DNA from: Agelas oroides
Lineage: Eukaryota > Porifera > Demospongiae > Agelasida > Agelasidae
Direction: 5' to 3'
Length of the DNA stretch: 64,000 nt
Assembly: GCA_949130485.1 (NCBI GenBank)
Contig: OX422184.1
Coordinates: 11,539,996-11,603,995 of the forward strand
Of the stretch, positions 4,414-54,767 are shown piece after piece (position 1 is the first letter of the stretch; the number at the start of each line of letters is the position of its first letter). A program made the translations under genes and the position numbers. Below the pieces are notes generated by a model, which ran no database searches, was not told the origin of the DNA, and worked only from the letters and a program-made list of their open reading frames with translations.

Positions 4414-4600
4414 AGTCTCGCAAGCCAGACCCTTTCCGCACAGTGCTGATCGCTTTCGGTATGTGGCACACGGAGGGAAGAAGTTTGATGTTTGGGTTTA
4501 CAATTTCACTTTGGATTTATGACGATTCTTAGTTCCTCTGCGTGCCGATACTGAAAGCGATCGGTGCTGTGGAACGGAAAGGGTCTGGCTTGCGAGGCTA
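4414..4600. mobile_element. Mutator-type palindromic mini-element
   Basis: Ends read TAGTCTCGCAAGCCAGACCC on the left and its near-complement GGGTCTGGCTTGCGAGGCTA on the right. The flanks read gtcttgaag on the left and, across the Tc1 insertion, gtcttgaat at 8516. That is an eight-of-nine match, as expected for an aged 9-bp duplication. The Tc1 element at 4601 inserted into its terminal TA. Confidence 0.65.
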
Positions 4601-4779
4601 CAGTAGCGGTCAAAATTAGGTTCCCATTTCGTTTCCGTTCAACGATTGTTGAACGGTATGCAACGCCGTTCCATTTGTGTGCCGCTTGCGTATTGAATGA
4701 TTCAGCATTCCGTTCCATTCCGTTTCGTTTCCGTTTACTGTTCCACGTGTGAATATTTTTGTTAGTTCTTCATGCAGCC

Positions 4780-5590
4780 ATGTACTCCACGACGTATCAA
4801 AAGCAGAGAATTCTATTCTTCTACTACCAGGGATGGAAAGCGCCAACCATCGCCAAACGTTTGAAGGAGGAAGGTCTCTCGGGGAGTAGGAGAGGCATAG
4901 ACAAGTTTCTCAAGCGATTTCAGGAAACTGGATCGATCGCCCGACAACCTGGCCAGGGTAGGCCATCGAAGATAACTAGCGAAATCAAAGAGATGGTCGA
5001 GGCACAGATGTGGTTAGACGATGAGACGATGGCAATCCAACTCCATCAGCTGCTAATCTCCCGGGGATACAATATCAGTAAACGGACTGTCCTTCGCTGT
5101 CGAACATCACTGGGATGGACGTTCAGAGGGAGCGCGTATTGTCAGCTAATACGTGAAACCAACAAAGCAAAGCATTTGGATTTTGCTCAGAAATACGTCG
5201 AAGAGGCTACGTCTGCTACCGAATTTGAAGACGTCGTGTGGACGGACGAATACTCAGTTCAGCTGGAGACGCATAGGCGTTTTTGCTGTAGAAAATGTGG
5301 GGAGCCACCTAAACACAAGCCAAGGTATGCCTCCAACAGTACATATACTTTGCACGCACAGTGCTTGCGCATTTGGTAAGCAAGTACCGAAGGTAATGGG
5401 CGTGCTCTAACATAGGCCATGGATATTATAGACTTGTTTACGAGTCTATAATATCCATGGCCTATTTGTTTCAGGAATCGAGCAGTTCTGGAAAGCTATT
5501 GACGTGGCAAAATGTACGAGGTATATTCGACATCTTCGAAAAATCATCCCAAAAGTTATCGAAGTAAATGGCAATGCAACAGGATATTAG
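4780..5590 (+). pseudogene. Tc1/mariner transposase, catalytic core deleted
   Basis: The reading frame from the ATG at 4780 to a stop at 5379 gives about 200 residues. It has two helix-turn-helix segments (YYQGWKAPTIAKRLKEEG; FQETGSIARQPGQGRPSKI), a second HTH around RGYNISKRTVLRCRTSLGW, and the first catalytic Asp in VVWTDEYSVQLE, followed by the usual basic region. The frame then ends. The family C-terminus reappears at 5474-5590 (IEQFWKAIDVAKCTRYIRH through VNGNATGY, then stop). About 150 residues with the second Asp and the final Glu/Asp are missing, replaced by some 90 bases including a perfect hairpin. A GT..AG pair brackets the gap, but the reading phases disagree, so I read a deletion and not an intron. 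This copy cannot catalyse transposition. Confidence 0.88.
5413..5463. repeat. Perfect hairpin inside the transposase remnant
   Basis: Arms of about 22 bases (starting TAGGCCATGGATATTATAGA) pair around an 8-base loop. It lies exactly in the gap left by the lost catalytic core, and may be a repair product or a mini-insertion. Confidence 0.75.
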
Positions 5591-5628
5591 ACAGTATAGA
5601 TGCACTTAGTGAATGGTACATTGTAGTA

Positions 5629-5896
5629 TATGTGGCAGTCCCGGATAGAAATCGAATATTATTCCGTCGCGTATTTCGAGCACATCACCAAGTTTGACGC
5701 GCTATAGCGCTGAGCTTCCGCTAAGGGCAGGGCTCACACGTGCTATGTAAACGCATGAATATCTGATACGTCTACGAAGCGCGTATGAGCTCTGCCCCTA
5801 GCGGAAGTTCAGCGCTACAGCGCGTCAAACTCGGTGATGCGCTCGAAATACGCGACGGAATAATATTCGATTTCTATTCGGGACTGCCACATATGT
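5629..5896. repeat. Palindromic MITE, about 268 bp
   Basis: Two arms of about 105 bases face each other. Each carries GGCAGTCCCG(G/A)ATAGAAATCG, the GTCGCGTATTTCGAGC block and the GACGCGCT..AGCGCTGA block. A short spacer separates them. It lies between the ends of the two convergent genes of the Tc1 element. A partial relative (GCTGAGCTTCCG..GGG) is at about 18590-18665. Confidence 0.7.
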
Positions 5897-5997
5897 ATAT
5901 ATGTAGGAAGCACTGTATTTGTAAATAGAAACTACAATGCAAGTGTATTTCAACAAGTGTACACAGTGAATCAACATTAACTACAGAGTATGTACTA

Positions 5998-8183
5998 TCA
6001 GTGACGTAAACGTTTACAAGCCTGTCCAACTGCATCAACACACTTAGTCCACAGAACTTCAAATTCTTGTGGTTTGTTCCAGTATACTGGGAATAAATTT
6101 CGTATCGTCTCCTTTAGCTCAGCAAGCTCAGTGGTTGGCAGTCCTGGGAAGTCATGAGCACCATATGGAGTGCATCTGCTCATTACACTGTCACCAAAAA
6201 CAGCTTTACGGGCTAGCTTGACAGCCAATGTAGTTGCCTTAGATGGTACACAGAGGTGGTGGTGTGTATGTGCCACGCTTTCAATACTGGAAAGTAATGC
6301 CTTGTTGATTTCCGAAGAAGGCATAGTTGATACCTGACCTTTTTTCACTGAGGTCTGGTGACTAAGCAAACTCCTAGACTGTTCACCTGGGGTATAAGTC
6401 TGGCTCCAAGACTGTTGCCCTGGGGTATAAGCCTGGCTAAGCTGACCCCAAGGCTGTTGCTGTTGCCCTGGGGTATAAGTGTGGTGAGTAGACTGGCTTA
6501 GTGGACTGCAAGGCTGCCCTGGGGTACAAGCGTGGTGAGTAGACTGGCTAAGTGGACTGCAAGGCTGCCCTGGGCTATAGAGCCCTGTAGTGTCAGTCAA
6601 TGGCTCATAGTCAAGAGACCATGGTGGGTACTGGTGGCTGTAGGTTTCTTGGTGTTCAGCTCTCTTGACAGTAGCTTCTCTTGACTCGTACTGCTCGAGC
6701 CTGGCAAGAAGAGCAGCCTGTGCCTCTTCAACCCGTTGCAGTCTTAACTCCAGTTGCTCAACTTTCATCTCCAGTAGCAAAGGGTCTGCAGTAACAGAAC
6801 ATATGATGAATAAATAAGTCCGTGTAAAATAGCAAAGGGCAGTAACAGAACAATAAACAAATGTGAAATCAACAAACACAAATTTGAATGCATACCTGAT
6901 TCAGATACTGTGGTGTTGCTATTGAAGGAGTCCCTCCAGTATCTGTCTAGAACCAGGTGGCTGTCCGATGCTATGCTGGCCAACTCCGTACCCACTGACT
7001 GTGGACTCTCCTGAACAGTGATGGGAGAATTCTCAGTGGGGTCACTGTTTGAGGAACCACTGTGAGGGATCACTGCTCGGCAGATCATTGCTTGGGGGAC
7101 CACTGTTTTGGGGACTGCTGCTCGGAGGCTCACTGCTCTGGAGACAACTCTTTGGCGGGCTGTTGCTCGGAGGATCACTGTCTGGGTGATCACCAGCGTT
7201 GTGACACTGATCTTTAGGATAGCACCTGTGAGGAATGACACAGATAAACCACATCAATGGAAGCTGAGGGGTTAAAAAAAGTGATTACAGGTACATGCAA
7301 TGCGAAAATCCACTTCTTACAAAATTATTTAGGCCAGAACAGGTATCCTCACCCTTTTTCTTTCCACTGGTTTTGTTAGGTCCTTTCCCCTTTGGTGGAA
7401 TGTTTTCCTTTTGTGTAGATCCTAGCATGTGAATAAACAGAAGTTTTGCTGTAACTTAACTATATACAGACAAATGAACAATGTTGTCAAAAGATCGCAA
7501 CATACACTCCTCACCCTTTTTTCTGGTTGCATCTTTTTTCCTCCCAGTGGTTGCACCCTTTTCTAACGGTACAATGGGACAAGCAGTAAGAGAAAATTCA
7601 TGAAGGCACATATGCTAAATGTAATTCTTTAATTTTGTCATAGTGAGAATGTATAGTGTTCATGAAACTGACCTGATTTCCTTTTCTTTTGCTGGGGCTC
7701 AACGCAGTCATCACCAGGTGTGCTGGCTCTGCCCCGTTCATACTCGACGGCAAGGCTCTTGATTTCCTGTTTAGATCCTGCAGTTATTAAGGTCAACCTT
7801 CAACTATGCTCACACTACTATTTACAATCTACTTTACTTCCTTACCAATGCCAAGAATCTTCCCTGCATAGATGCACCCATCCGACCACTCCACACTACA
7901 GCTAACACCCTTTTTCACTTTTGTCACCGGTGGTTCAAGAATGTTCATTTCTTTCACTTCAGCAACAGTGTCATCTTCTGGGAAGTACACCAGGTAGTGT
8001 TGTTCTAAAGTAGAGAGACATGGAGGTTGGTACAATGGCGTAACGGCGAATCTAGTGTATTCCAGTTAATGCCCATTCACTCAAACGCCGTATTCTTGCT
8101 ATAGCTATCAGCACTACTGTGGAACAAGAGCTAATACATTTATAGCTAGTGTTTGTTGCACTACACGTACCTGATGTGCGCAT
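5998..8183 (-). CDS. BEN-domain protein, seven exons, passenger of a Tc1 element
   Basis: Predicted minus-strand exons are 8183-8171 (ATG), 8004-7846, 7777-7673, 7562-7515, 7421-7353, 7225-6896 and 6785-5998 (TGA). All six introns are GT..AG, all in phase 1, and the frame stays open for about 503 codons, which argues strongly for a real gene. Residues 5-57 (YLVYFPEDDTVAEV..VEWSDGCIYAGKILGIG) look like the small beta-barrel segment often found N-terminal in animal BEN proteins. Lys-rich linkers follow (about 90-135), then a Ser/Thr region, a coiled coil at about 244-287 (LLLEMKVEQLELRLQRVEEA), YTPGQ-type repeats at 290-375, and a C-terminal BEN domain at about 400-500 (KLARKAVFGDSVMSRC; LKETIRNLF; FEVLWTKCVDAVGQACKRLR). 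BEN domains bind DNA or chromatin proteins. The start is short but fits the splice phase; a Glu/Ala-rich frame upstream (8190-8340) lacks an ATG and is probably 5' UTR. Confidence 0.85.
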
Positions 8184-8841
8184 AGAAGCCTTCACCGCTG
8201 TTCTCAAAGTCATCTTCGCCAAGGATCTTGCACTCTCGGGTCTCGTTCTTCGCTTCGACTTCGCTCTTTGCCTCGGCTTCGTTATTCGCTTCGGCTTCGC
8301 CTTTCGCTTTATCGGCTGATTTATATGACCCGCACTTCACGGTTTGCTTCTTTTATGCGGCACGTGTAAATTTCTCACCTCCGTACAAGAACGTTCCGTT
8401 CCGTTTATTTGCACCGTTCCACTTCCGTATTATAATCGTACTTCCACATTATATTCAACATAGTACGATCGTTGTACGGAAACGAAATGGGAACCTAATT
8501 TTGACCGCTACTGTAGTCTTGAATGTAGAAACTGTGGAGTGCATGAGCTGGGTCTGTATGGTATGTTGGGGTAAGTTATGTTGTGAAATTTTATTGCTGC
8601 TGGACATGGCATGTATGGATTGTCTTTTATGTAGAAGGCTGTGTATTGTTCAGTGTTCATTTAGTGGGTGTGAATAGACTAAGAGCATGTAGAGAGTTTT
8701 GTGGTGTGCATAGCGAATGGCACAAGATGTAGGGATGGTGTGAAATTGTTGTGGTGTCATTCCCATCTAGTTTGGTTGGTTTTTGAGGGCTCCATCCCTA
8801 CATGTGCTTGTTTTAATTCAGAAAACTTTTTTGTGACTTGT

Positions 8842-10375: not shown

Positions 10376-11053
10376 CTACCCATTACCTGTGTGACTGGAC
10401 CAGGTTAGAATCAACCTTGTCTTGTTCTGTTGCACTGGTATGATATTATGCTTTATATGTGCAGTACATGTGTAAATTGCTTTATAGTGTGTTCCATGCA
10501 TTTCGGCAGTATGTGTGTATATGTTTCTACAAAGAAATTCTATGTATGCATTCAGTTGCATGCATAGCTGCTCTTCTGTTTTGGGTGGATACGGCTCACC
10601 GTTGGTTTTGCGGGCTTCAACAACAAAAAGACACAGAACGCGGCAAAGTTCAGTGCATTCACTGTCTTTGTCCACTGGCTTTGAGAGGATGTCGACATCT
10701 ATAGTCTCGCCCACAGTGCTACGCTGATTTTGTGAAACAATCCACTGTCTAAAAGTGGAAAATGCCCACTTCGTGTTCTTTTCGGTGTTTTGGGGGACAA
10801 ACCCCTTCGAAATAGTCTCCAATTGCTCTGAAGACACCATCTCAGTAAAACGCTTCTTCCCTTTTAAAGAAGCAGGTACTTTCTGACGCTTCTTTGGTGG
10901 CTGGAAGTCGTCATTCTCTTTCTCGCTGTCGGAATCAGTCCAGTCACTCGTCCCGAGCTTAAATTCCTCCGGAACCTTCTTAGTTGTGTCAATGCTGTTG
11001 ACTCTAGCTAGCAGCGAAGGAGAAACCACGCAAGGCTTACTGCTTTTCGCCAT
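10376..11053 (-). pseudogene. QRICH1/Crypton-like N-terminal fragment
   Basis: The ATG at 11053 opens a frame beginning MAKSSKPCVVSPSLLARVNS. An acidic and basic stretch follows (DSDSEKEN; PPKKRQKV, a likely nuclear localisation signal), then the conserved block NTKWAFSTFRQWIVSQN..LCRVLCLFVVEARKTNGEPYPPKT. That block is characteristic of the N-terminal part of QRICH1/ZMYM-type proteins, which derive from Crypton tyrosine-recombinase transposons. The reading frame runs on past PPKT into low-quality sequence with no splice donor where the family continues, and no recombinase core is visible. I therefore call it a 5' fragment. A second, more decayed copy is at 61.1-61.8 kb. Confidence 0.65.
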
Positions 11054-11273
11054 TTCAAACTCACATTTTGAACAAGCTACGATAATTGCATTTGAAGAGC
11101 TCAACCAATCAGATACCGCGAATGTTTTGCGTAAGCAGTTCCTATGCAACCGTAGCTATAGCAACACCAATCGGATTTCACGAGTGTTTACGTAAGCAGT
11201 TCCTACGCAACTGTAGCAAACATAGTTGCAGGCGGTGCCTTTGATTTGTATGGCTGTCATGCTACAAGCCAGC

Positions 11274-13879: not shown

Positions 13880-16800
13880 TTACGCGGTGTTCGAACAGAA
13901 CTGAGATCTACAGTATCCCAGAACTCGTCTAGTCTTGGAGTAGCCTCGTACCCAGTCCTCCACCACAGCTATCGTCGCTTGCAGTACGAATAACACGGAG
14001 AAGGCCTGGTGAAAATCATCACGTGATGTATGCCACTGACATAATAACATAACTTTAATATTTTTCACTACGTCATGAAGTAACTGCACAAAGCCGACTT
14101 GGACGGACTGGAGCTCGTGCGGGACGTTTATCCAACAAATTTCAAGTTTACAGCAGATTGCAAAAGTCTTGCAACAAGCAAGCTGATGTTGGAAAAACCA
14201 CAATTAATTTATCATCCATGAATCTAATTATTTTTAACGCGCCACTTCCAGACATACGTAGTACTGGGAATCTAGCTGTGACAGTTTTACTCGATCCACG
14301 TAGCTAACGATGCAACAAAGGCACTTATACCCTGGACCAGCTCCTCCAGCGGCTTACTATGGCTCAATGTACTATTTTGGGCCGGCAACTTCTAGCCCCC
14401 ACCTTGAATTGGACCATCCAAGCACTTCAGGTATTTAATACAGTACTCTAGCTAGTTGTGGTTACTTCTCTCATACAAAAAGCTCTGTTTCATTCCTGTA
14501 GTGAGGAGGTATGGTGATAAGCATGGCATATACGTGTATACATGTACACACTACAGTGAGCATTATTTAGGATTGTTGGTTATTCTATTTAGAGCCGGTC
14601 ATGATGCTCATCTTCCTTTTTTTAGGGACAGTTGGTGAGACAAGAAAGTACAACTATGTAGTACGAATAATAAACCCTACTCGGAAGAGTCTATTTTCTG
14701 TTCGGAATTGGCATCATGTCAATGAAAAGTTCTCAAGATGAAACTGATGGAAACTTTTGCAGACCAAGTCCCCGATACCAGTAGTGGTTTCAGTGTGGGT
14801 TATTATGAAAAACCAGGAAATGCAAAGCGTTGGATAGAATCCTCTGATGACTTGGAAGCCATGTACGCCGTATACCCACATGATAACACTATTACACTGT
14901 GGTGTGATGGTAAGGATGCTAATGCTAATACATGTGGTGCTGCAAAGTCTCAGACTAAGCGCACAAACAGTGTGGATGAAGACCCACCTGTTAGCAAGCG
15001 GGCAAAGAAGGAACAGGATATTGAGGAAGCCTTCAAGATTTTACAGGAAAACCATAGTGATGAATACAGTACTCCACAACTTCGTCTCTGGGCTAGAATG
15101 TATGGGAATGGTTTGCATGATGATTTAGACAAACCGCCCAACGTCCCAGCCATCACTGGACAGCCCATAAAGAAGAAGAAGGAAGCAAAGTATGAACCAC
15201 TTACTGAAGCTCTCGCTGGTGCTGCAACAGCCATAACTAAAATACTAGTGACTGGTTCAAATGCATCTCCCACCCGCAATGTAGGTTCAGACCCCAAAAA
15301 GGCACTTGGAATTTCCCCTGCAAGTAAAGCTAATTTGAGTGGACAATATCTACAGCAGCTTAGCACACTGCAACAACTAAGAGAAAACTCTGTGCTTTCT
15401 GAGGAAGAGTTTTCAGAGCAAAAGTACAGCAGATTGCAAAAGTCTTGCACGGGCAAGCTGAACAGTGGAAAACCACAATTGATTTACTGTGTTTGAACCA
15501 TGAGGAAGGGCTTGCTGAGGCGGGAAAGATAATCAGATTCATACATGGTAAATCAATTATGGTTTTCCACTGTTCTGCTTGCTTGTTGCAAGACTTTTGC
15601 AATCTGCTGTACCTCCTTTTGCATAATCTGAGAGGACTCAATGCATCTTAGTATGTTTACAAAACTACACAAACTATGGAATACAAATTACATCATACAG
15701 TGTATCAGCTACTATATTTATCACATATATCCAGCATGTTTTATCCATCCAATACAATCATCTTTTGTTATAGATGCAAATCCAGCTAATATAAAATCTT
15801 CCAATTCATGGTCAGGTACAGCCTGGATGGCAGCTTCATTAGCTTTCAAGTACGCCTTGATTTTTGAAAATCCCTCCTCCATTGGATTAAGATCAGGTGA
15901 GTAGGGTGGTAAAAAGTGAACTAGGGCTCCAACACTTTGAATAATCTGTACTATGTGATCGACATGATGCATAGATGCATTATCTAGTATAACAACACTG
16001 TTTGGATTTGTTCCATTAAAGGGCATAAGGCGTGGAACTAGGCACTTGTCTACAAAATCTTCAAATTTTTCAGCATCTACATTTTGTGATGTTATGTAGC
16101 TGTCTTGAATTCCTTCAACAGTGAGAATCCCAATCGCTGAATACCTGACACCACGCACAAGTAGAGAGGTAGATGGTGCACGCTTTCCAACTAAACTATA
16201 GCCAAATTTACGTAATGAACTGCGTCTATCACATCCGGTTTCATCAAGAAACACTAACATTTCTGGGCTATAAACAGAGCAATCTGATACAAACTCGGAT
16301 CGCAGCTCTGCACTTCGCTGTAGTGCTACTTGTTGCAGTTTTTTCCTTGAGAAGTTGTTCTTTTTCAAAAACCTGCATACAGTAGCTTCATCCACCTCAG
16401 TACCAGTGACCTGCTTCATGTCATGCACTATCTCTCGCAGATAAATAGAAGGCCTTGTTAAGATATTTTCCAGTATCACAAATTCATCATATGCTGTCAA
16501 TGCTGTAGGCCTCCCACTTTTTGGATGCTCATCTACATCTCCCGTTTGGTAGAACCTGCTTACTACTCTGCTGACTGTAGAGGCATCTACATTCAGATTT
16601 TCACCTACTTGCCTGCATGTCAGACCTAAGAGTTCCTTCTGGTACACCATACGCCATCGCAGGCCACTGGAATACGCTGAGGTGCGGTGAGGCTCTGCGG
16701 AGCTTCCAGACGCCCTTGGCCATTGCTAAATGTAATAATCATATTCATACAGGAAGTCATTATTCAATTGTGGGTTTGTTGAACAACTTTCCATGTTGCA

Positions 16801-19800
16801 AGACTTTTGCAATCTGCTGTAGACGAAGACGAGTAAGAACAACATGAGAAAAAGGACGCTCAAATGGAAGCAAGAGTGAAAGTTGACAGTTTCAGAGCGC
16901 TAGAAGCTGTATGACAAACCTGGAGCGCGACCATCTGTTGCCAATGGTTCCAGAGGTTGGTTTTGAAGTTGCTATGACACTAGGTTGCTCTTCGTTCTTT
17001 GCGCCTTACATATATTATGTCTTTCCATACGCTATCAATCGATATCGTGGCTACTGCTGCATAATAATTCCAGTCTCGTTCCCAAGATATCGTTCGCCTG
17101 GGTACGAGGCTACAAAATTTACTAACTAGCATGTGTGACGTAGACAGTGGCATACATCACATGATAATTTTCACCAGGCTTTCTCCGTGTTATTCGTACT
17201 GCAAGCGACGATAGCTGTGGTGGAGGACTGGGAACGAGGCTAGTCTTGGAGCATGTAATTTCAATATGCTTAGTGCAGCCTTCCTCTCCAGAGGGTTCCT
17301 CAGACACTTCACTGACAGCAGCCGAGGGATGTCCTTTACATGAGGGAGGCTGCTGTGGTGGAGAAGGGTCTTGAATGGAGGTGGAACATTGCTGGACCTG
17401 GTGACTTGTTTGTGATCTGAGTGGAAGTAGGTTTATCATCACCTTTTCGAGCAAGCCCATGAGTTCCTCCAGTGGGTGCTGCTGGAGTGTCTGTCCCAGC
17501 TCCTTGGCCAGCTGTAACAGGTACCAGACCACTTTATTTTACAAATTATTATGGGCTTAGTGACCAAACGTCACATCCGGAGTACATTCCTGTGCCGTCT
17601 TGGAGTACTTTATTATTGCAGTCAATGCAATCTTTAGCCAAACATCCAGAGCAATAACTTCCAGGCGGTACTGTATATTTCAGTACAGTGAAGTTCAATC
17701 ATCACTCTTGCAAAAACTGGGTGGCAATCAGACAATCTGTTGTCGAGCTATGAGGTGACAACGATGTCTGCAATTCATGTGAGTACTCAGGTAAGCTAGG
17801 GAGAGTACAGCAATAATATAATATGTTGGTCCTTTTCACTTTTCACTTCCTTTTGGCTTTCAAGTTACTTCAGCAGTATTTAAAGTTGATAACAACTTTG
17901 CTGTTACTGCATAAGAGACATTTTGCAGTGAGTTAAGTATCTCATGACATTTCAGTGTTAAACTTACTGGTGTGGCACATCCACCTCTCCCCCCTCTCCT
18001 CCCCCTTTCTGGCCTCCTTCCTCTGGGCCGAAACCTTCGGCCCCTGTAGTGGGTGGTGGGGGGAGGAGGTAGGGTGGCCACGGGACCGGTAGGAGCAGTT
18101 GGGTGCGTGGCAACCCGAGGGTAGGAGCAGTTGGGGGCAGTGGCAACCTGGGGGTAGGAGCAGTTGGGGGTGGTGGCAGTCCTGGGGTAGGAGCAGTTGG
18201 GGGCGGTGGCAACCCGGACGTAGGACCAGTTGGGGGCAGTAGCAACATGGGGGTAGGAGCAGTTGGGGGTGGTGGCAACCTGGGGGTAGGAGCAGTTGGG
18301 GGTGGTGGCAACCTGGGGGTAGGAGCAGTTGGGGGTGGTGGCAGTCCTGGGGTAGGAGCAGTTGGGGGCGGTGGCAACCCGGACGTAGGAGCAGTTGGGG
18401 GCAGTAGCAACATGGGGGTAGGAGCAGTTGGGGGTGGTGGCAACCTGGGGGTAGGAGTAGTTGGGGGAGGCACTTCAGGGCCAGTAGTGCCTAGAAAATA
18501 AAGAAAGTTAACGGATTTGCACACTGCACACATGCAGTCGGAAGTGTGTATATATATATTTATTGTTTTACTATATACACACGTTGCATTGCTGAGCTTC
18601 CGTTATTGCCGGGGCGGGCCAAGCTGTTTAAGGTAACGTATGTGCAGCGGATGTGAGCCCCGCCCTTAACCCTTTGAACGCGGAAGTAATTTTATTCATG
18701 ACAGTTTATTAACGCGGAAGTTGTTTCATTATCACCGTTATCAACTCGAACGGTCCAAGTGACAAGCGTGCTAATAAAGTCTTTGGCTGCACCAACGGCT
18801 TGATTTGTGTAGATAGGGTGTAAATAGGCTGGACTAGTTTATCTAAATGTGTCTAGTAAGATATTTCTACTTGTTTTAAGCCATTTTGTGCTGACTATGC
18901 ATCGTCGCTTCGAGCGGTTGGAAACGGTGCCGATTTTCTGAACCGATACCCACAGCCCCGACAAAATAAGTCGATTTACAAGTTATTTGAAGCTATTACT
19001 CCTACCTGAAGTGAAATATGGAGAACGCTTTCTCCCTGAGGGCAAGAAAAAGCTTCGTGTTTTGGCAGCCCTCAGCTCATTGGGCTATTCCATTTAATAA
19101 GCATACACCCCCTGTGGATGAGCTTTAATTATGTCGAGGGGGGTGTATTGTCAGAATTGTGATTAGTGTCAAGGGGGGTATCAGAAGTGTGATTAGTGTC
19201 TGGGGGGCCAGTGTTGTCAGAATTATGGATTTGTGTCAAGGGGGGTAGAAGTGGATGAGCTTTAATTATGTCAAGGGGGGTGGGTGTATTGTCAGAATTG
19301 TGATTTGTGTCAAGGGGGGTAGAAGTGGTTAATCTTAATTATGTATGGGGGGGGGGGGGGGTATTGTCAGAATTGTGATTAAGTTTAATTATGTCGAGGG
19401 GGGTGTATCATCAGAATTATGATTAGTGTCAAGGGGGGTTGAAGTAGATAAACTTCAAGTAGAATTACGTCCAGGGGGGTGTATTGCCAGAAGTATGATT
19501 AGTGTCAAGGGGGGTACAAGTGGTTCAGGGGGTGTATTGCCAGAAGTACAAGTGGTTCAGGGGGTGTATTGACAGAATTGTGATTTGTGTCGAAGGGGGT
19601 AAACTTAAGTAGTATTATGTCTGGGGGGGGGGGGGGGGGGGGGGCAGTGTTATCAGAATTATGTTTAGTGTCAAGGGGGTACAAGTGATTCAAACTTTAT
19701 GTACAGGGGGTGATCATCAGAATTATGATTTGTGTCAAGGGGGGTTGAAGTAGATAAACTTTCCAGGGGGGTGTATTGCCAGAAGTATGATTAGTGTCAA

Positions 19801-22800: not shown

Positions 22801-25754
22801 GGCCAGATCTCAGTCATGTGCTACATGCTCCAAGGGGCTACTTGTAGTCTTACAAGTCTTACAAGATTAGATTCAGATTTACAATAACACCAAGGACAAA
22901 TTAGGTCAAGTTATTGTATAGCAATTTTAATCTGAGGACAAGGATTGGTTATTGCTGCATAACTCCCATGGCTACCATGTTATAGCTAAGCATTGTGTAC
23001 TTCACTTATCATAGGTTCTTATTGCCTTTATAGCTGTAAGTTTCTTTTCTGTCTAATGTAGCGAAACAGTGATTCACTGATTCTAAGAAATATTGCATGG
23101 TAGCTTTGGATTTAGGATCGCCAAGTCCAAGGGCAAAGCTGAGAACAAATTTGCGAGCTACGTGGCTATATACCTCAAAGGATTGGTCCTTGTTGTTATT
23201 CACACAAGATAGTTTACACTGTAAACAAGGTGGTTTGTATGAAACATCATTCCTACCTCCACACAGGCTGTTCCCCACCTGTTACCATAGGAACAAGAAC
23301 ATCATTTCTATTCTCTACTCAGGCTGTTACCCACCTGTTACCATAGAAATGAACATCATTCCTATCCTATACATGGGCTGTTCCGATAAGTGTACAAAAG
23401 CAGCCATCCTGTGATTCTGCTTTGTGGTACTTGCAGTTCCACAGTTTGGAAACAAATTTCTGCTGTTCTGCTACCACACAGCCTCAGAATTTTATAATGC
23501 ACCAGAGAAATTTCTGCTATTCTGCTACCTCAGTAGCAGAATGTTTCTCATCTGAGAAATATTCTGCTATTCTGCTAATCTGCAACCCCGGTGGCAGAAC
23601 CTTTCTAACCAGAGAAACATTCTACTATTCTGCTACCAGAATTTTGTTCATCTGAGAAACATTAGCAGGAGTTTTGAGGGAATATTTCAGCTATCATAGT
23701 GAATCTACATCATCAAAATTTTATAATTTTTTTATTATGATGATTGTTTTGCGGGGGCAAGGGGGGGGGGGCTGGAACTAACAACTGGTATGTTGGATTT
23801 TATAGCTTGTGCCAGCTTCTTGACAGGTTCAGCATATTTTGGGTTGTCCAGGAAACGGTTTAGTGGCATATTTATTTGGTATATTGGCATACAGTCAAAA
23901 GACGATGAAGGGATATCTGCAAAGCAAGCTAGGACATCAAAGTCTCTGAGTGCAAAGTAACTAATTTTCTTGAATGTTTGCCACTGAATCAGTGTATGAT
24001 GTCAAAACACGCTAGACTGTGAATCCAGTTCAATAAGCAGTGCTGTACTTTGGGCAGGTATACAATGTGATTTATGTTTGGCAAGAAAAGGGTTCTCAGG
24101 ATTCAGGGCTGGGTTTCCTGCTACTGTTCAAGTGAGAGCAGAGTAGCAAAATAGCAGAATATTTCTCAGATGAGAAACATTCTGCTACTGAGGTAGCAGA
24201 ATAGCAGAAATTTCTCTGGTGCATTATAAAATTCTGAGGCTGTGTGGTAGCAGAACAGCAGAAATTTGTTTCCAAACTGTGGAACTGCAAGTGCCACAAA
24301 GCAGAATCACAGGATGGCTGCTTTTGTACACTTATTTGTTCCCCACCTGTTACCATAGAAACATCATTTCATGCCATTGATTGTGTCAGGGGGACACTAC
24401 ATCCCATCTGATTGGCTCTCCATGGGGTGGACATGCAGTTAATTGTGTCAGAGGAGCACCATGTTTTATGCAGTTAATTGTGTCGGGGGGGGGGGGGGGG
24501 GGGGGGGGGCATTACAACCCATTTGATTAGTAGTCCAGGGGGATGGACGTGCAGTTAATTGTGTCAGGGGGGTATTACAATCCATTTGATTAGCTGTCCA
24601 GGGGGGTGGACATGCACTTAATTGTGTCAGGGGGGCATTACAACCCATTTGATTAGCTGTCCAGGGGGGTGGACGTGCACTTAATTGTGTCAGGGGGGCA
24701 TTACAACCCATTTGATTAGCTGTCCAGGGGGGTGGACGTGCACTTAATTGTGTCAGGGGGGCATTACAACCCATTTGATTAGCTGTCCAGGGGGGTGGAC
24801 GTGCACTTAATTGTGTCAGGGGGGCATTACAACCCATTTGATTAGCTGTCCAGGGGGGTGGACGTGCACTTAATTGTGTCAGGGGGGCATTACAACCCAT
24901 TTGATTAGCTGTCCAGGGGGGTGGACGTGCACTTAATTGTGTCAGGGGGGCATTACAACTCATTTGATTAGCTGTCCAGGGGGGTGGACGTGCACTTAAT
25001 TGTGTCAGGGGGGCATTACAACCCATTTGATTAGCTGTCCAGGGGGGGTATTGGCTACTAATTATGTCCAGGGGGCCATATTACCCAAACTGTCCATCCA
25101 CAGGGGGTGTATGCTCATTAAATGGAATAGCCCATTGACGATCACCCGCGAATAAGTACCGCCTCTTCCTGTTTTTCCAGACGATGATGTCAGTCCAAAG
25201 GTGTGGCATAGCTTCATTAGCACTTATCATGGAGGGCCTACTCTCAAATCTCGTTAAGCTTCTTAGCTTTGTGCGCGGAAAGCACACGAACTTATCGTGA
25301 GCATATATATATGGTCGCCGCGACGACGGGAAATTTAATGTGACCATATATATATGGTCACCGCGTTCAGAGGGTTAACTACGTGGATCCATGGTGAAGG
25401 TAGCAAAATATATTGTGGCACACACAGAACACTTAAACGGCTCATGCCTACCAGTGGGGGCCGCATTGAACTCATCAAAATTGCCCATGTCCTCCATTTC
25501 CATAAATATTTCTATGTAACAAGGGGATGAAGTACAGCAGTACGTGTACGTACATACCTAACTGTATACACAAATTTGCTATGAACTCACCGTTGTCCGA
25601 ATCAATGTTTCTCCCTTCGGCCATACTTGTTGCAGTTGCTGCTACAAAATGAATTTTTGCAGCAGCAATTGCAAGAAAACCTGGACCGCGTTTAGCATTC
25701 CCGCGTGGAAGAGTTGGTCCATTGCAAGTGCACATGATATACAGATCAGACCAC
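13880..25754 (-). CDS. Host-like minus-strand gene, unrecognised, exons spread by insertions
   Basis: I propose these minus-strand exons: 25754-25591 (CNGPTLPRGNAKRGPG..), 25511-25452 (EIFMEMEDMGNFDEFNAAPT), 18490-17968 (Pro/Thr repeats), and a last exon 17511-17243 that resumes at 13940-13880. The first three junctions agree in phase (1 to 1 to 1) and have GT/AG borders. The third-to-fourth junction does not (2 versus 0), so a small exon is missing or the link is wrong. The last exon (LAKELGQTLQQHPLEELMGL .. HIEITCSK) is cut by the Mutator-type element at 13941. Across the insertion, minus one 9-bp duplication, the frame continues TRRVLGYCRSQFCSNTA to a stop. The intron between exons two and three holds a nested 6.7-kb insertion. 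The first exon starts in phase 2 after an acceptor, so more exons lie beyond 25754. No known domain is seen and the product is unknown. Confidence 0.45.
14310..15651 (+). pseudogene. Passenger gene of the Tc1/IS630 element, two exons, disrupted
   Basis: Exon 1 (14310-14430) encodes MQQRHLYPGPAPPAAYYGSM and on to HPSTSG. A GT..AG intron (14431-14625, phase 1) follows. Exon 2 continues TVGETRKYNYVVRIINPTRK..WHHVNEKFS. A frameshift lies at about 14737. The next frame is open for over 220 codons: METFADQVPDTSSGFSVGYY..RWIESSDDLEAMYAVYP..ITLWCDG, a Lys-rich linker, LRLWARMYGNGLHDDLDKPP, and SGQYLQQLSTLQQLRENSVL. A 183-bp MITE splits the last codons at 15427. Without it and one TA, the end reads EEEFSEQKYLLLHNLRGLNAS, then stop. 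The RWIESSDDLEAMY segment has a ubiquitin-like/PB1-like look (low certainty). I recall this as a multicopy sponge family of unknown function. Confidence 0.65.
15427..15609. mobile_element. MITE of the host Tc1/IS630 element, 183 bp
   Basis: The ends carry the same CAGCAGATTGCAAAAGTCTT terminus as the enclosing element, with TA outside (15425-15426, 15610-15611). Its arms match each other for about 65 bases. The right arm is closer than the left to the left end of the enclosing element. It interrupts the passenger gene close to its C-terminus. Confidence 0.85.
15721..16650 (-). CDS. IS630/Tc1-type DDE transposase, near-intact
   Basis: The frame gives 309 residues from the ATG at 16650 to the TGA at 15721. 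Residues 1-60 form a helix-turn-helix (LLGLTCRQVGENLNVDASTV, then FYQTGDVDEHPKSGRP). A second HTH lies at about 65-110. The catalytic triad is visible: Asp in MLVFLDETGCDRR, Asp in VVILDNASMHHVD, and Glu in PYSPDLNPMEE. There are 34 residues between the second Asp and the Glu (DD34E). The frame stays open upstream to 16734 (QWPRASGSSAEPHRTSAYSS, then GLRWR), and GLRWRMVYQ is the usual family lead-in. The true start may therefore lie there, in a codon now lost, or in another exon. It reads inward from the right TIR and would cut and paste at TA. It looks active or only recently inactive. Confidence 0.88.
   Translation of the reverse strand: MVYQKELLGLTCRQVGENLNVDASTVSRVVSRFYQTGDVDEHPKSGRPTALTAYDEFVILENILTRPSIYLREIVHDMKQVTGTEVDEATVCRFLKKNNFSRKKLQQVALQRSAELRSEFVSDCSVYSPEMLVFLDETGCDRRSSLRKFGYSLVGKRAPSTSLLVRGVRYSAIGILTVEGIQDSYITSQNVDAEKFEDFVDKCLVPRLMPFNGTNPNSVVILDNASMHHVDHIVQIIQSVGALVHFLPPYSPDLNPMEEGFSKIKAYLKANEAAIQAVPDHELEDFILAGFASITKDDCIGWIKHAGYM
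17068..17113. repeat. Small hairpin with Mutator-type ends
   Basis: It reads AGTCTCGTTCCCAAG .. GGGTACGAGGCTA with complementary arms. No 9-bp duplication is visible around it, so it is old or partial. The neighbouring 16822-17067 of the enclosing element shows nothing supportable. Confidence 0.55.
18090..18475 (-). repeat. 33-bp in-frame minisatellite in a host exon
   Basis: About twelve imperfect 33-bp units (GTAGGAGCAGTTGGGGGTGG core on the plus strand) encode an 11-residue Pro/Thr/Leu repeat (TAPTPRLPPPP type) on the minus strand. The unit length being a multiple of three keeps the exon open. It includes an apparent higher-order repeat of five or six units, suggesting recent expansion. 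From 18495 to 18665 there is only a TA-rich run and a MITE fragment. Confidence 0.85.
19130..19900 (+). repeat. Left subterminal G-rich irregular tandem repeats
   Basis: Repeating phrases are AATTGTGATTAGTGTCAAGG followed by a G5-G6 run, GTGTATTG(A/C)CAGAA, and pure G runs of up to about 22. The spacing varies between about 35 and 70 bases. On the G strand this should readily form G-quadruplexes. Reading frames here are repeat artefacts. Confidence 0.8.
19901..23390. other. Interior of the 6-kb element, no gene seen
   Basis: This 3.5-kb stretch shows no conserved protein words and only short frames. Minor features are more G-rich GTCAGGGGG phrases at 20150-20330, a diverged half copy of the 53.7-kb TIR element at about 20610-20700, and a repeated phrase CTGTTACC..CACCTGTTACCATAG with three units at 23270-23380. 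Confidence 0.5.
23392..24338. repeat. Inverted repeat, 190-bp arms
   Basis: The arms 23392-23584 and 24142-24338 are near-perfect reverse complements. Both contain GTGTACAAAAGCAGCCATCC at the outside and TTTCTCATCTGAGAAATATT inside. The spacer of about 550 bp is unrelated, with a G11 run at 23761. This could be a fold-back element or two oppositely inserted copies of one short repeat. Confidence 0.8.
24476..25060 (+). repeat. 63-bp tandem repeat, about nine units
   Basis: Almost identical units contain AATTGTGTCAGGGGGGCATT, ACAACCCATTTGATTAGCTG and TCCAGGGGGGTGGACGTGCA. The first unit carries a G run of about 28. The array forms the right subterminal zone of the 6-kb element. The 186-residue minus-strand frame through it is a by-product of the 63-bp period. 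Confidence 0.9.
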
Positions 25755-36550: not shown

Positions 36551-37936
36551 TAGTCTTGTGCCCAGACCCCTCCCTCTCATGAGGAAAACTGGTCTGGTGA
36601 ACCAAGTTGAATTTCTTGGGCTAGCACACACTTTTGCAACTAGTGTAACTTAGCAACATTCAAAACATTTTGCGACATACCTGCTCAAAAAATATTTAGA
36701 TACCTGACAGAGATGTAAAATTTTACTGCTGTAAGTGAAGTGAGGAGTAATAACTAGCAGAATGCACTGCATTGTGGGGCGAGGCTGAGCAAGCAGTGGC
36801 GTGAAGGGTAGAAGAGCAACATCTGGTTAGTTATCGCTTTTGGACTTACGTAACCTGGGCAGGCAGAGCATGTACACATGGCGTGTATACAGCATTCATC
36901 TGTCATAGTCTCTTTGTTCTGGTACCTCAGCAGCTACACAAGTGGCACGGCTTGCCCTGTCTTTACCCCGCGTGCACATGCGTGAAGGGGTTAAGCAATC
37001 GGTTTTGTCCGTCTTTCAGTCTGTCTGTCAGTCCAGTGATAAATTTTGAACTCGGAATATAGACAGGGTTAAACGATTTCTAAAACTGACAGTAGCATTG
37101 AAATTGTAAAAAAAAAAGTCACGTATGTGTACCCCATAGGGACCAAAGCGGTTCTATCCTCTGCTTTTCCAGCCGTTTCCTATTTGATGTTGGAACTGTC
37201 CGCCATTTTAATATAGTCAATACCTTGGATACGGTAGAGTCCGGGTATACAAGGACCGACACATGTCCATCAATAATTCGGATACAGTGGAGTCCGGGCT
37301 TATGTAGACTGGACACGTGTCCAGTCTAGGACGAGAAGCTGTTTATGCCAGCAAGGCGATTTTCTTTCACATGCACTATGACACCAAAGTAACAACGTCG
37401 TAAAGCACACGGGGTAAGTATTCTGTGAATACACTCCAGTTTGTCCTGCACTTACTCAGTTTGTGTTCTCTTTGCTCTGCTGTTTCAGCAGCACGGTGCG
37501 CTGTCACATTCGTTTCTATGTTTCCTTTTCTCCTCTGTTGTTTGTGGCGTCCTTCACGGGTCACTTCGAGAACATGATGGTTCCATATCAATGACCCCTG
37601 CAGCTTCGTTTCGAGAGCATGATGATTCCATCCTTAGATCCATGTTGAGCACATGGATGTGACACTGCCGAGAAATACCCGTGCATTTTCAATTTTTTCA
37701 CAACATGACTATTGAAATATGAATGTATTTACGGTACGACGTACGAATACATACGTACATACAGACACCGCTTGCGTTGAACACGTTAATGTGGGTCTTG
37801 CTCAAGCTTGCCCCAATTAACAATCTCACAATTTCATTGGTCCTTACCACGTTCTGGTAATAAGCCCAAAAAATTCGACTTGTTCACCAGACCATTTCTC
37901 ACCTAGAGGCGCATGGTGGATCTGGGCACAAGACTA
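36551..37936. mobile_element. Mutator-like TIR element, 1.39 kb, old
   Basis: The ends read TAGTCTTGTGCCCAGACCCC and the inverted GGATCTGGGCACAAGACTA. Similarity continues inward for about 75 bases (GGTGAACCAAGT..TTCTTGGGCT). The flanking nonamers atgaaatat and atcaaattt agree at seven of nine positions, as expected for a decayed 9-bp duplication. The terminal TAG.CT.GT.CCCAG resembles the TAGCCTCGTTCCCAGG family. A related repeat (36961-37330) lies inside. There is no transposase. Confidence 0.6.
36961..37330 (+). repeat. Repeat P, copy A, no exon kept
   Basis: It begins TTTACCCCGCGTGCACATGC, then GGGGTTAAGCAAT, a GTCAGTCTGTCAGT-like run, GACAGTAGCATTGA, GGTTCTAT..CCTCTGCTTTTCCAGC and GAGTCCGGGTAT. 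Copies B (40985-41520, minus) and C (58590-59355, plus) share this order and carry a protein exon after it; copy A does not. Confidence 0.65.
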
Positions 37937-37999
37937 ATCAAATTTATAGCACACTTTGAATTGTCAAACAAGCTTACTTAGCAATTAGCTATTTTAGTC

Positions 38000-38205
38000 A
38001 AGCTACACACTGTCTAAACTTATTGTGTGAAACCATACACAATCAAAACAGTACTGATTTCCCACTTGATACTGACACCCCTGACAGTTATTTGGGGAAG
38101 TCTCACAATAAACGTCTTAGCTTTATGCATTAAGCACTATTTCCCTACCTTGTTGCATATGCATTTAGCATGTGTCACAAATATGCAACAAATGCAGTTC
38201 AAGGG
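38000..38205 (-). repeat. Diverged piggyBac-type end fragment
   Basis: The terminal CAGTTCAAGGG is followed by TTAA (38202-38205 region), and the inward sequence resembles the 28022 copy with many changes. A C14 run lies nearby at about 38320. From 38206 to 38650 I see nothing else except a MULE-like TIR phrase, GTGGGTCTGGCTTGTGA, at about 38545. Confidence 0.45.
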
Positions 38206-38652
38206 TTAAAACCTTAGTCTTGCAAGCACTGCGTATATAAGCCATGTCCCACTGGAATGCAATTAGCTAGGTGACATAACCAATGTACTCTTGAATTACC
38301 AATTACGAAGTGCGCATACCCCCCCCCCCCCCAAGAACTATAGTCAGACTGATGTGTTTGTACAGCTATCGTAGCAGAAAAGATGTCCTAGCTCTGTCAC
38401 AGTTTCCAAGACCATTATTGCTACACAAACAGTGATGTAATGTGTCATGTGATATGATACTGTAATGTGATTGGAGCGCACTGTACAGTGCGGCGGGACA
38501 CGGCTTGTATACGTAACCCACCAGGCCCTTCCCTTTTTTGCAGAAGTGGGTCTGGCTTGTGAAACTAAGTATAGGAACACTGTCAAAGAAAGCATGTGCA
38601 TAGTAAACCCAGACTGTTGATAGGAAACTGTGCATTTCTACTTCAAAAAGGC

Positions 38653-39126
38653 TTACACTTTCAGGCCCTCCCTCCCAAATATCCCCAACTCCAACAGGGC
38701 CAAAGTATAAAACTTTATGCGATCATTGTGGAAGGACTGCTGGACTAGTCTGAGGCCGTCATGAAGTCGCACCAATACTGCAGCCAATTGGCTGCACTCC
38801 AACTGTGTATAGAATGAACAGCACTGAAGTGCAGAACCCTCGGCACAAGCTAGATGTGTTTGGTTCTGTTCTTGCCTGTGCAAAGTCTGCTCACATGTTT
38901 CAGAGGCTCTCTTACTCGCTTTGCGGACTTTGTCTCTCTCTTTCATCACTAATAACTCTTCCTCAGACAGTAAGGCTTTTCTACGTTTCATTGCGTTCTC
39001 AGGCTCCCAAACAGCAGTACACCGTGCGTTCCTTTTTATCGATGCGAAGGCATGGCCACAGTCACAAACTGACCTTTTCACGTGCACTACAGTATTACAC
39101 TGTGGGCAAACCTTTCTCAGACGCAT
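38653..39126 (-). CDS. Zinc-ribbon protein with RASE.EQTLHRQ repeat
   Basis: The frame gives 157 residues from the ATG at 39126. Residues 5-27 form a Cys4 zinc ribbon (VCPQCNTVVHVKRSVCDCGH). A basic region with MKRRKALLSEEELLVMKERD and KASKRASETCEQTLHRQEQN follows; I associate such RASET.EQTLHRQ.QNR motifs with N-terminal parts of repeat-borne, helicase-associated proteins in cnidarians and sponges. The C-terminal 60 residues (CSFYTQLECSQLAAVLVRLH..) are unrecognised. Just upstream (39131-39175) lies a second, broken copy of the PQCNTV segment, a small tandem duplication. It may be the first exon of a longer gene or a remnant, and no downstream exon is identified. Confidence 0.5.
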   Translation of the reverse strand: MRLRKVCPQCNTVVHVKRSVCDCGHAFASIKRNARCTAVWEPENAMKRRKALLSEEELLVMKERDKVRKASKRASETCEQTLHRQEQNQTHLACAEGSALQCCSFYTQLECSQLAAVLVRLHDGLRLVQQSFHNDRIKFYTLALLELGIFGREGLKV

Positions 39127-39468
39127 AGACCTAATCTACGGTATTACACTGTGGGCATACCTTTCTGAACCTCTCGTAAAAGACAGTCACAAACATCTAA
39201 GTTAGATGGAAAAACCACAATACCGTGTGCTCCAACTCACATGATCACACATTACCGTTACGTACGTGTTACGGAGAGGTATACGGAAACATTGCACGTG
39301 AAGAAAATGGCTGACTTAGTCGCGGTAAGTTTATGATGCTTCTAACTTTTGAACTAAGCAGTTTTAGAGAAAACGGCTTTTTCATTTTTCTGCATTTTCC
39401 GCGCTGTAGCCACGGATACCTCTCGTTGGATGCCTAAAAGCGCGAGAAGGCAGAGTAGAGAAAACGGG

Positions 39469-39470
39469 GT

Positions 39471-39510
<40 letters not shown>

Positions 39511-39526
39511 CACACAGACACACAGG
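39469..39526 (+). repeat. (CA)n microsatellite
   Basis: About 29 CA units with two interruptions. The His/Thr-rich frame through it is an artefact. A piggyBac-like terminal word (CGCGCAGAGGGTTAA) follows at about 39555. Confidence 0.95.
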
Positions 39527-40079
39527 ACAACTACTGTAACCCTGTCGCGCATGCGCGCAGAGGGTTAATGATGTGTGCTGCAACAAGAGAAAGACAAGTA
39601 TATAGACATTTTGGACTCTTGACAGTAGTTAGATGCTATTTTGGGCCCAAGGCTATTGTGTCCCCAAGCGCAGTGAGGGTGCCTGGGATAACTGCTGAAT
39701 CAGCAAGCATAAAATTCTACAGCAGTTATGATCAAAAATATTGTCCCTTCAGTGACCACACTAACATTACCCGCTGTACAAAGGCCGAGCTTTTTGGTTG
39801 CATAATGTACGAAAAACAGAGAAACAGCCTGGAAAACGTGATCATGTGCCCTGTGATGCAGAGCAAATAGTTTTGATAATCAAATTATTTCGAGATTGGT
39901 ACTAGAAGGCTGTTTCACTATTTACCGGGGATACAATAAATGTAGCTTCTACGACGTACACTTGAGATAGTTGCCTTGTTGAACTTAAAGAAAGCTGTAA
40001 GTTTGTAGCTGTTAGAAAGCTCATTCACTGTTGCATAATAATCCTGCAACCAAGCCTGGAAACTTGTTTTGTTTTTTTC

Positions 40080-40276
40080 AGAACTCAGTTGTTCATAGCG
40101 GCCTTACAAGGAGTCCTCGCTGCCATAGTGAGTGGTGTCAACAAGCAGACTGTCTCAAAGCACACCGAACTGACGAGCTACAACAAAGATGGTCTAGTAT
40201 TTACAACACTGGGCAAATATTCAGAGTCAGACTGCATGGGCAATAATTTGATTATAACCATTCACAAAACCATGCA
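40080..40276 (+). CDS. Possible terminal exon of a small host gene
   Basis: After a TTTTTTCAG acceptor the frame TQLFIAALQGVLAAIVSGVN, SKHTELTSYNKDGLVFTTLG, SDCMGNNLIITIHKTMHST ends in TAA. A candidate first exon, ATGGCTGACTTAGTCGCG followed by GTAAGT (39308-39325), lies upstream, but the phases do not fit without another exon. The product is unknown. Confidence 0.3.
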
Positions 40277-40626
40277 CTCTACGTAAAGGAGGAAAATTCA
40301 TTCAGCATCTCAAAAAGCTGGAGAGGAGCTTGGGAATGAGGCTACTACCAGAGAGGAGTCTGAGAATGAGGTTCTTACCAGAAATGTTGAAACAAGGACA
40401 TTTCCTTCAGCATCAGGACAGTTCATCAGGACCTCATGTAGTTTCTCCTGCGAAACACTTTGCTCCCTAGGGGGAAAGATTTCTGTCAATTTGATGACCT
40501 GTGAAGCCCTGTGAGATGAAATACCATAGAAAGTAGTTAATAGGTGCATACTTGCTACTATGCTTTGAACTTTGACTTTCAAGAACAGTACTGGGGCAAA
40601 ACTTAATTTATTCCTGTTGCAAAATA

Positions 40627-40948
40627 AACTAGAAGTCTTCAGTGAAGACATACCCCACGCTGTTTTTTGATACAAAGGGACCCTGAGGTGTTTTTGTTTA
40701 TTATTTTAACAGTTTTCAGTATAGGGATGTCATGAATGGTTTCACATATATTCTGCTTAGTGTATGGTTTGCATGGTGTTGGGTGTTTGTTTCAGGGAAG
40801 CTGATACATGCATGTTATATCCGCTGATGTTCGAGGTGGTGGTTGGTATGTTATGTGTGCTAAGTCTGTGGCTGTTACTTTGCTGTGTGCGCATTGGGAT
40901 TTTGTTCTAGATGAAAGAGGTGTCTATCACTATTTGCTGCAGCTACTG
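40627..40948 (+). repeat. Repeat X, copy 1 (conserved C-terminus plus 3' flank)
   Basis: This is about 90% colinear with 57982-58312. Both start with a frame ending LEVFSEDIPxAV. and a stop, then share about 280 bases of AT-rich flank ending CTATCACTATTTGCTGCAGC. A conserved reading-frame end plus conserved flank suggests the 3' end of a repeat-borne gene. It abuts repeat P copy B. Between 40290 and 40626 there is only a Mutator-like end word (GAGCTTGGGAATGAGGCTA) near 40328. Confidence 0.65.
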
Positions 40949-40984
40949 TAAATACTACTAACCAAACTTCTTATGTTAATAACT

Positions 40985-41520
40985 AAAATGTGTACCTTCT
41001 CTTTGACTGGGCTCCTCTTTGCTTCCTCTCTTGTGCATCCTGGGCTTGTTTGTACCCTTGGGTTTCTAGCATTTCCCTAAATTTAAGAGAACGCTTTCTG
41101 TCTCTTCTAAGGTCCATGCTGGTATAAATGCTTTTTCGAAAACTATACAGATTGGGGTAGCATTACGGAAATTTCGCTGTGTATGCTCGGACACCACCGT
41201 ATCAAAATTATGGACAGGTGTCAAGTCCACGAATACCCGGACTCTACGGTATTGACCGTATTAAAATGACGGATGATCACGACGTTAAATACGAAACTGC
41301 TGGAAAAGCAGAGGGTATAGAACCACTTTGCTTCCTATGAGGTACACATGGGTCACTTTTTTTACAATGTCAATGCTACTGTCAGTTTTGGAAATCGTTT
41401 AAACCTGTCTATATTCAGATTTAAATATTTTTCACCGGACTGACAAACTGACAAACTGACTGACAAACAGACGGACAAAACCAATTGCTTAACCCCTTCG
41501 CGCATGCGCGCGCGGGGTAA
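40985..41520 (-). mobile_element. Repeat P, copy B, with first exon
   Basis: Reading on the minus strand from 41520: TTACCCCGCG terminus, GGGGTTAAGC, a TTTGTCAGTCAGTTTGTCAG run, GACAGTAGCATTGACATTG, GAGTCCGGGTATTCG, then an ATG at about 41118 opening MDLRRDRKRSLKFREMLETQ, GYKQAQDAQERKQRGAQSKR, ending at a GT donor (GTACAC). Copy C has the same exon. It is probably an N-terminal exon of a repeat-borne protein. No catalytic domain is present here. Confidence 0.6.
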
Positions 41521-45143: not shown

Positions 45144-45313
45144 CTGAAATCAAAGTATCTCACACTATTTCCAGCCTCTAGGAGTGGTTTGGGAATGAGG
45201 TTAACTATTCTTGCAGTGTACCTTGTGGTTTTATAAGTGGTCAATACACAACTGGGCTTACTAACATAAGTTGTATTATTAATATTGCTCTCAAGTATCT
45301 GTAACAGTGTCAT

Positions 45314-54343: not shown

Positions 54344-54767
54344 TACAACACCGTACTCACTGAAATGAAATTGATGAGTTGACAAATCATGAGCCACATG
54401 TAGTGTAAAATTGGAAAGACAATAATGAAGGTTTCATTAGACAGAGCAAATCATGTTGTGAACAATCATTGTGTCAGCCATGTGAGAAATTACCAGGCTC
54501 TTTCATTCTTCCATGCTGTAAGCAAAGGAAAGCTAGTGCCTGAAACAAGGCTAACTATATAGCTGTAACCAGGTTATCTAGTACCCAGGCTTACAAGTTT
54601 GGGAATGATACTTAAATCAGAAAAATAAGGCACTCACTATGAACGGACGGTGCAATATAGCCTATCCAAATACATTACATTCCTAATCATATGACTATAT
54701 CAAAGTCCATAGTTAAGCTCCATTAACAACAGTGCAATAAATGCCAAATAGTGTTTTTCTTGTACAT

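Follow-up and report, generated by a model that had tools for sequence, protein, structure and literature searches.

A Tc1/mariner-type element of the sponge Agelas oroides that carries a predicted multi-exon BEN-domain gene

How does an apparently whole, intron-bearing gene for a putative DNA- or chromatin-binding protein come to lie between the ends of a DNA transposon? The question is raised by a TA-flanked element of 3,913 bp in the demosponge Agelas oroides, located at positions 4601–8513 of a 64,000-nucleotide stretch (hereafter the window; assembly GCA_949130485.1, contig OX422184.1, positions 11,539,996 to 11,603,995 of the forward strand). The element holds part of a Tc1/mariner (IS630)-type transposase gene and, convergent to it, a predicted seven-exon BEN-domain gene. 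An earlier note on this DNA offered two origins for the latter, capture by the element or genuine membership of a larger, two-gene transposon. The contrast in CpG content between the BEN gene and the remainder of the element tips the choice towards capture, and the second-gene reading stays a rival.

Element boundaries and insertion site

The terminal inverted repeats (TIRs; 4601–4638, plus strand, and 8476–8513, minus strand) are identical at 38 of 38 positions, and a TA lies directly outside each end (4599–4600 and 8514–8515), just as the earlier note had described. The terminal match extends to 47 of the first 49 positions, with mismatches at positions 39 and 47; no further occurrence of the TIR was found elsewhere in the window when up to nine substitutions in the 38 bases were allowed. 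TIRs and TA target duplication are of the kind found in Tc1/mariner (IS630) elements. Internal to the TIRs are two subterminal regions (4639–4776 on the left and 8214–8475 on the right) which contain the motif CGTTCC at 4667 and 4711, and at 8392, 8397 and 8415, respectively, with the sites in the same orientation at the left and right ends. These five sites lie within 380 bp of element ends, where 0.15 would be expected from the density in the window; the middle of the element contains none.

Both flanks of the element (left of approximately 4409 and right of 8516) belong to one repeat, a second copy of which, without the element, is located at 53515–54344 on the minus strand. The left flank matches this copy over 297 bp at 88%, and the right flank over 596 columns at 75% (or 508 columns at 78% under other alignment settings). 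Once the element is removed, together with a 184-bp miniature inverted-repeat transposable element (MITE) that abuts it, the joined flanks align to the repeat copy in one piece (810 columns at 81%), apart from a local difference of 9–11 bp at the junction. Because a copy of the repeat without the element exists, the TIRs, the transposase and the BEN gene are most simply explained by one joint insertion. The transposase and BEN gene would most simply have arrived together, which supports the previous claim that the gene was moved with the element; acquisition of the BEN gene in place, after insertion, would be a less simple account. The abutting MITE (4415–4598) has inverted ends of approximately 27 bp and its own TA on either side. 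The sequence of the left TA (4599–4600) is common to the MITE and the BEN element, i.e. the two occupy the same TA and represent two TA insertions side by side.

The transposase remnant

The transposase reading frame is open over 4753–5376 on the plus strand, and the open reading frame (ORF) at 4777–5376 encodes the N-terminal half of an IS630/Tc1-type transposase, as far as approximately the first catalytic D. It matches the NCBIfam IS630 model NF033545 with 51.3 bits (E 1e-13) over model positions 2–186 of 299; the cut-off of this model (100 bits) is meant for the whole protein, and the fragment scores below it. Seven Pfam matches, several of them to helix-turn-helix families, are likewise all below cut-off. 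Of the DDE/D catalytic triad only the first-D region remains; the part that would contain the other two catalytic residues is missing, and the end of the IS630 match at model position 186 agrees with the loss of the catalytic core recognised earlier. As the region of the catalytic core has been lost, this copy cannot be expected to have a working transposase of its own; the element is a relative by descent of Tc1/mariner (IS630), and is not autonomous.

A hairpin (5412–5465; 26-bp arms, 96% complementary) is present where the core was lost. It is followed by a short open tail on the plus strand (5474–5590, ending in TAG at 5588–5590), probably the transposase C-terminus, which we take to be like that of Tc1; the tail has no Pfam match. 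A TA-flanked palindromic MITE of 261 bp (5631–5891; arms 90% complementary) lies between the two genes. A candidate relic of the same transposase at 45155–45232 (E 0.014, 26 amino acids) was rejected, the surrounding frames being full of stops.

The BEN gene

The BEN gene is on the minus strand, running from 8213 to 5998 and convergent to the transposase, and is predicted to be split into seven exons by six introns, all of phase 1 and with GT-AG borders. Translation from the first ATG (8213) gives an open frame of 513 codons, and from the second one of 503, so that the gene model of the earlier note, with its 503-codon frame, is recovered and can be extended by ten codons. Exon 1 (8171–8213, from the first ATG, and containing the second) is followed by exon 2 (7846–8004), which encodes a Tudor-like stretch (weak match), and by exons 3 (7673–7777), 4 (7515–7562) and 5 (7353–7421). 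The first half of exon 6 (6896–7225) consists in part of eight 15-nt repeat units and its frame is doubtful, whilst exon 7 (5998–6785) encodes coiled-coil-like heptads, 51-nt repeats and the probable BEN domain, and ends with the stop codon TGA.

An exon-chain search using simple splice rules gave a score of 1503 for the BEN stretch and 654 for the opposite strand. None of 100 dinucleotide shuffles of the stretch reached the real score (mean 496, maximum 1047), and the maximum in 36 other stretches (18 positions at 20–64 kb, both strands) was 921. Shuffling restricted to the sequence upstream of exon 7 never reached the real score in 200 trials (maximum 1434); the upstream exons are therefore also beyond chance. 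These controls show that the BEN stretch is coding beyond chance. The splicing itself is predicted, and the best-scoring chain departs in part from the earlier gene model in its exon ends.

The cargo product is probably a BEN-domain protein, and as such a putative DNA or chromatin binder. The match to the BEN family of Pfam (PF10523) scores 23.0 bits, narrowly below the cut-off of 23.2 (model positions 3–74 of 76; E 9e-5), and 21.4 bits, also under the cut-off, within the spliced protein. Structure prediction without relatives yielded a four-helix model of the BEN domain (mean pLDDT 55.9) and a model of exon 2 (pLDDT 48.4), both too poor to add anything; a Foldseek search with the BEN model returned 145 matches up to E 10, with none at E ≤ 0.001 among the 50 listed. 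Comparison of exon 7 with PDB sequences gave no match up to E 1, and that of the N-terminal part gave weak matches to SMN Tudor (best E 0.1).

CpG contrast within the element

The observed/expected CpG ratio (CpG o/e), calculated in 200-bp steps, is 0.91–1.67 over 4601–6000 (hairpin and MITE included), 0.07–0.44 over 6001–8000, and 0.83–1.75 over 8001–8600, the last step extending 87 bp into the flank. The ratio is 0.27 for the BEN gene and approximately 1.0–1.9 for the transposase and termini: 0.98 for the transposase at 4777–5376, which is not depleted, 1.62 for 4601–4780 and 1.88 for 8214–8513. The coding pieces of the transposase contain 41 CpG and 41 GpC dinucleotides, against 28 and 99 in BEN exons 2–7 together with introns 2–6 (Fisher p 4e-5); when the left subterminal region is added to the transposase, the counts on that side become 52 and 48 (p 3e-6).

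With the MITE excluded, the intergenic 146 bp contain no CpG, and the depleted stretch may begin directly after the transposase stop. The upper break lies between exons 2 and 1 (approximately 8000–8200), intron 1 having a CpG o/e of 0.81 and the region 8214–8391 one of 1.70. Coding constraint does not explain the depletion, since the introns are depleted too (CpG o/e 0.44 for all six together) and NCG codons are short in exon 7 (2 observed, 17.6 expected; 12 against 13.6 in the transposase). The CpG o/e of the whole window is 0.52, with 1-kb pieces ranging from 0.15 to 0.95 (5th–95th percentile), a spread that suggests mosaic methylation of the genome in the germline.

Proposed capture of a host gene

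We favour the reading that a young Tc1/mariner (IS630) element captured a host BEN gene at the DNA level, with a probability that we put at slightly better than even (about 0.52). A captured host gene should have a history unlike that of the element carrying it, and the CpG contrast is of this kind, though other causes are possible. Capture is preferred to long residence because the CpG histories of the BEN gene and of the transposase and termini differ; the contrast favours capture but does not settle the matter. The gene would have been taken from DNA and not from mRNA, as six predicted introns are present. Its CpG loss and largely open frame suggest that, before joining the element, it had long served under selection as a methylated gene.

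In the course of events that we envisage, a young Tc1/mariner-type transposon would have copied a complete, intron-bearing host gene of the coiled-coil plus BEN type at the DNA level, and the whole unit then inserted in a TA within an older repeat, an insertion shown by the repeat copy that is without it. Deletion of the catalytic core has deprived the unit of a working transposase, and any movement after that loss would probably have been via the transposase of other copies able to recognise the intact TIRs. The BEN gene, which starts near the CpG-rich right end, could still be expressed whilst acting as cargo. The transposon would in this way spread a duplicated host DNA/chromatin-binding protein; that the product also binds the element ends is speculative.

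Several observations weigh against capture. No copy of the BEN gene lying free of a transposon was seen in the sequence covered here. The genes fit together closely for a random event, with approximately 144 bp between the stop codons (MITE left out), and leftover host flank on the right side can amount to at most approximately 180 bp (8214–8391). The CGTTCC motifs are common to both ends of the element. CpG content varies widely along the window anyway (1-kb o/e 0.15–0.95, as above), and gene-body methylation of a resident BEN gene, with a transposase some 140 bp away unmethylated, could give the same contrast.

A possible two-gene lineage and the second element

The alternative that survives best is a genuine two-gene Tc1/mariner lineage, consisting of a convergent transposase and a BEN accessory factor that binds subterminal motifs or prevents silencing, of which this copy has lost the transposase core. 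We regard this as possible, though on balance unlikely. The compact tail-to-tail layout, which fills the element with the above-mentioned 144 bp between stop codons, is as such a lineage would predict, and the clustering of CGTTCC at the ends would suit an end-binding factor; binding of the BEN protein to these motifs is hypothetical. An anti-silencing role would be in keeping with mouse Bend5 (coiled coil plus BEN), which is described as a DNA binder acting through the BEN domain and reportedly recruits Tet1 for demethylation (PMC9233729). There is also a precedent in the TBE elements of Oxytricha, which, as described in PMC12242761, combine a Tc1/mariner transposase with two extra proteins under purifying selection, for which that account gives no sign of altered DNA binding in E. 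coli. The TBEs differ from the sponge element in having three ORFs, and their extra proteins, given there as a zinc-finger/kinase protein and a 22-kDa protein, are not BEN proteins.

The window contains a second element with two genes (14151–16819), which lends further support; it is TA-flanked, and its TIRs share 28 of their first 30 bases. Its transposase (minus strand) is open, with 334 codons from stop to stop, matches DDE_3 with E 9e-29 and is of the DD34E type (second D and E separated by 34 residues). The accessory gene (plus strand) is convergent to it and has a predicted intron, a weak SHOCT-like C-terminus (E 0.002, below cut-off) and one frame change near 14730; in the coding control, 0 of 200 shuffles reached its real score. 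The accessory protein had no match to PDB sequences, and the transposases gave weak matches only. CpG o/e in the two genes is 0.38 and 0.35. Similar depletion is expected when two genes share one history, in contrast to the BEN element, where the CpG history of the BEN gene is unlike that of the transposase and termini; this comparison argues against common residence of the latter pair.

Two further structures are associated with the second element. A TA-flanked MITE of 183 bp (15427–15609), with the same TIR start as the second element, lies inside the 3′ end of the accessory gene. Inverted arms of 132 bp (CCTCGTACCCAG type) enclose the second element at 13938–17245, with a direct repeat of approximately 10 bp outside (by eye), giving an arrangement of nested elements.

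A wider proposal, which we consider improbable, is that two-gene Tc1/mariner elements form a class in this genome, each with a spliced accessory gene convergent to the transposase: BEN in one lineage and a SHOCT-tailed protein in another. The BEN protein would bind the CGTTCC-rich ends and guard against methylation silencing. This would account for the retention of CpG in the termini and transposase and for its loss from the body of the BEN gene, which would be methylated as an active gene.

Relatives were sought in viral contigs and prokaryote genomes; given this content, and given that the protein scans depend on exact matches of short peptides, absence from these collections says little. 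No second copy combining the TIRs with a BEN gene was found in them, which counts to that extent against a two-gene lineage. In viral contigs, tblastn found no relative of the 513-residue BEN model, exon 2, the N-terminal half of the transposase or its 75-residue stretch, nor of the 187- and 200-residue stretches of the accessory protein and transposase of the second element, and the two TIR patterns had no match there. The transposase stretch had 0 relatives in prokaryote genome contigs. The TIR pattern gave two matches in the same contigs, both in Bacillus, which were taken as chance (19-base pattern, 257 Gb).

Integrity of the BEN reading frame

The earlier description of the BEN gene as unbroken stands insofar as a frame of 503–513 codons is open, and is otherwise unproved: the first half of exon 6 looks unselected, and its codon score leans to another frame, both by weak tests. 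The ratio of nonsynonymous to synonymous differences (pN/pS) between the eight repeat units of exon 6 is 1.50 in the model frame and 0.46 in the next frame, which reads PSSDP-like units, is open through the array and meets a stop soon after. The codon score of the same half is 0.04 bits per codon in the model frame against 0.17 in the next. Over 8171–8352 as a whole, the frame of exon 1 scores −0.22 and a neighbouring frame 0.26, and in exon 4 (16 codons) another frame scores higher than that of the model.

These values could be read as signs that the captured BEN gene is by now a pseudogene, with frame changes in exon 6 and perhaps exon 1, the open path being partly an artefact of repeat-rich, stop-poor sequence. 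We think this doubtful. The third frame of the exon 6 array, which contains stops, also has a low pN/pS (0.43), and neither exon 6 codon score exceeds the 95th percentile (0.22) obtained from 128 random stretches of open frame; the scores were trained on the open frames of the window, and both transposases, if excluded from the training set, score approximately zero in their own frames. The model frame scores best for exons 2, 3, 5 and 7 and for the second half of exon 6; for exons 2 and 7 this holds even with these exons excluded from the training set. The disagreement between frames may be due to use of another acceptor, or of a start codon that the model does not include.

The weakest alternative, that chance TIR-like sequences or two unrelated half-elements flank a fixed host gene, has nothing in its favour beyond the decayed transposase and is very hard to reconcile with the TIR identity (38/38) and with flanks that form a single repeat interrupted by only the element and the abutting MITE.

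Comparison with known systems

Tc1/mariner elements are described as typically encoding only a transposase (PMC12242761). The element at 4601–8513 resembles them in its TA target, its TIRs beginning CAGT and the N-terminal half of an IS630-type transposase, and differs in its length (approximately 3.9 kb), in its second, spliced and convergent gene, and in the loss of the catalytic core. Cargo related to DNA methylation has a parallel in fungi, where several groups of DNA transposons are described as carrying captured TET/JBP dioxygenase genes (Kojima 2025, PMC12730594); as presented in that study, these are other transposon groups from several lineages, whereas here there is one copy of a BEN protein gene in a Tc1 element. 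Plant Pack-TYPE elements, as outlined in PMC8903248, are DNA transposons that likewise take up coding sequence and mobilise it. The sponge element departs from that outline in that a whole predicted multi-exon gene is carried, part of the transposase is kept and the genome is that of an animal.

The cargo protein is comparable to BEND5-type proteins in its combination of a coiled coil and a BEN domain, a likeness in domain description (as given in PMC9233729). It differs from the type so described by a weak Tudor-like N-terminal stretch and long low-complexity linkers. No description of a BEN gene within a DNA transposon was found in the open-access literature searched; PMC5704228 was rejected as a source on BEN and transposons, its single occurrence of ‘BEN domain’ being in the reference list.

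Other features of the window

A candidate element at 37072–41399 has inverted ends bounded by TA and 4.3 kb apart (arm of 49 bp; 29 of 30 bases), and encloses an ORF (38653–39135) with a CxxC-type motif (by eye). TA-flanked pairs of long inverted arms at 61709–62956 and 23389–24332 (295 and 267 bp, respectively) are foldback-type elements. The ORF at 10376–11155 contains a QRICH1 domain above the Pfam cut-off (31.4 against 30.8 bits), and those at 17860–18602 and 24466–25080 are long ORFs of tandem repeat units, the former with several open frames on both strands. Another eight ORFs or fragments from the window had no Pfam match that merited follow-up, and Rfam and tRNA scans of the window returned nothing.

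Implications

A Tc1 unit moved together with an apparently whole, multi-exon gene for a putative DNA/chromatin-binding protein is unusual under either reading. If the gene was captured, the element would be a case of a Tc1 transposon able to duplicate an intron-bearing regulator. If it is resident, the element would be an animal counterpart of transposons with their own anti-silencing or accessory factors. The CpG contrast within one element offers a simple test, applicable genome-wide, by which cargo genes may be told from native ones.

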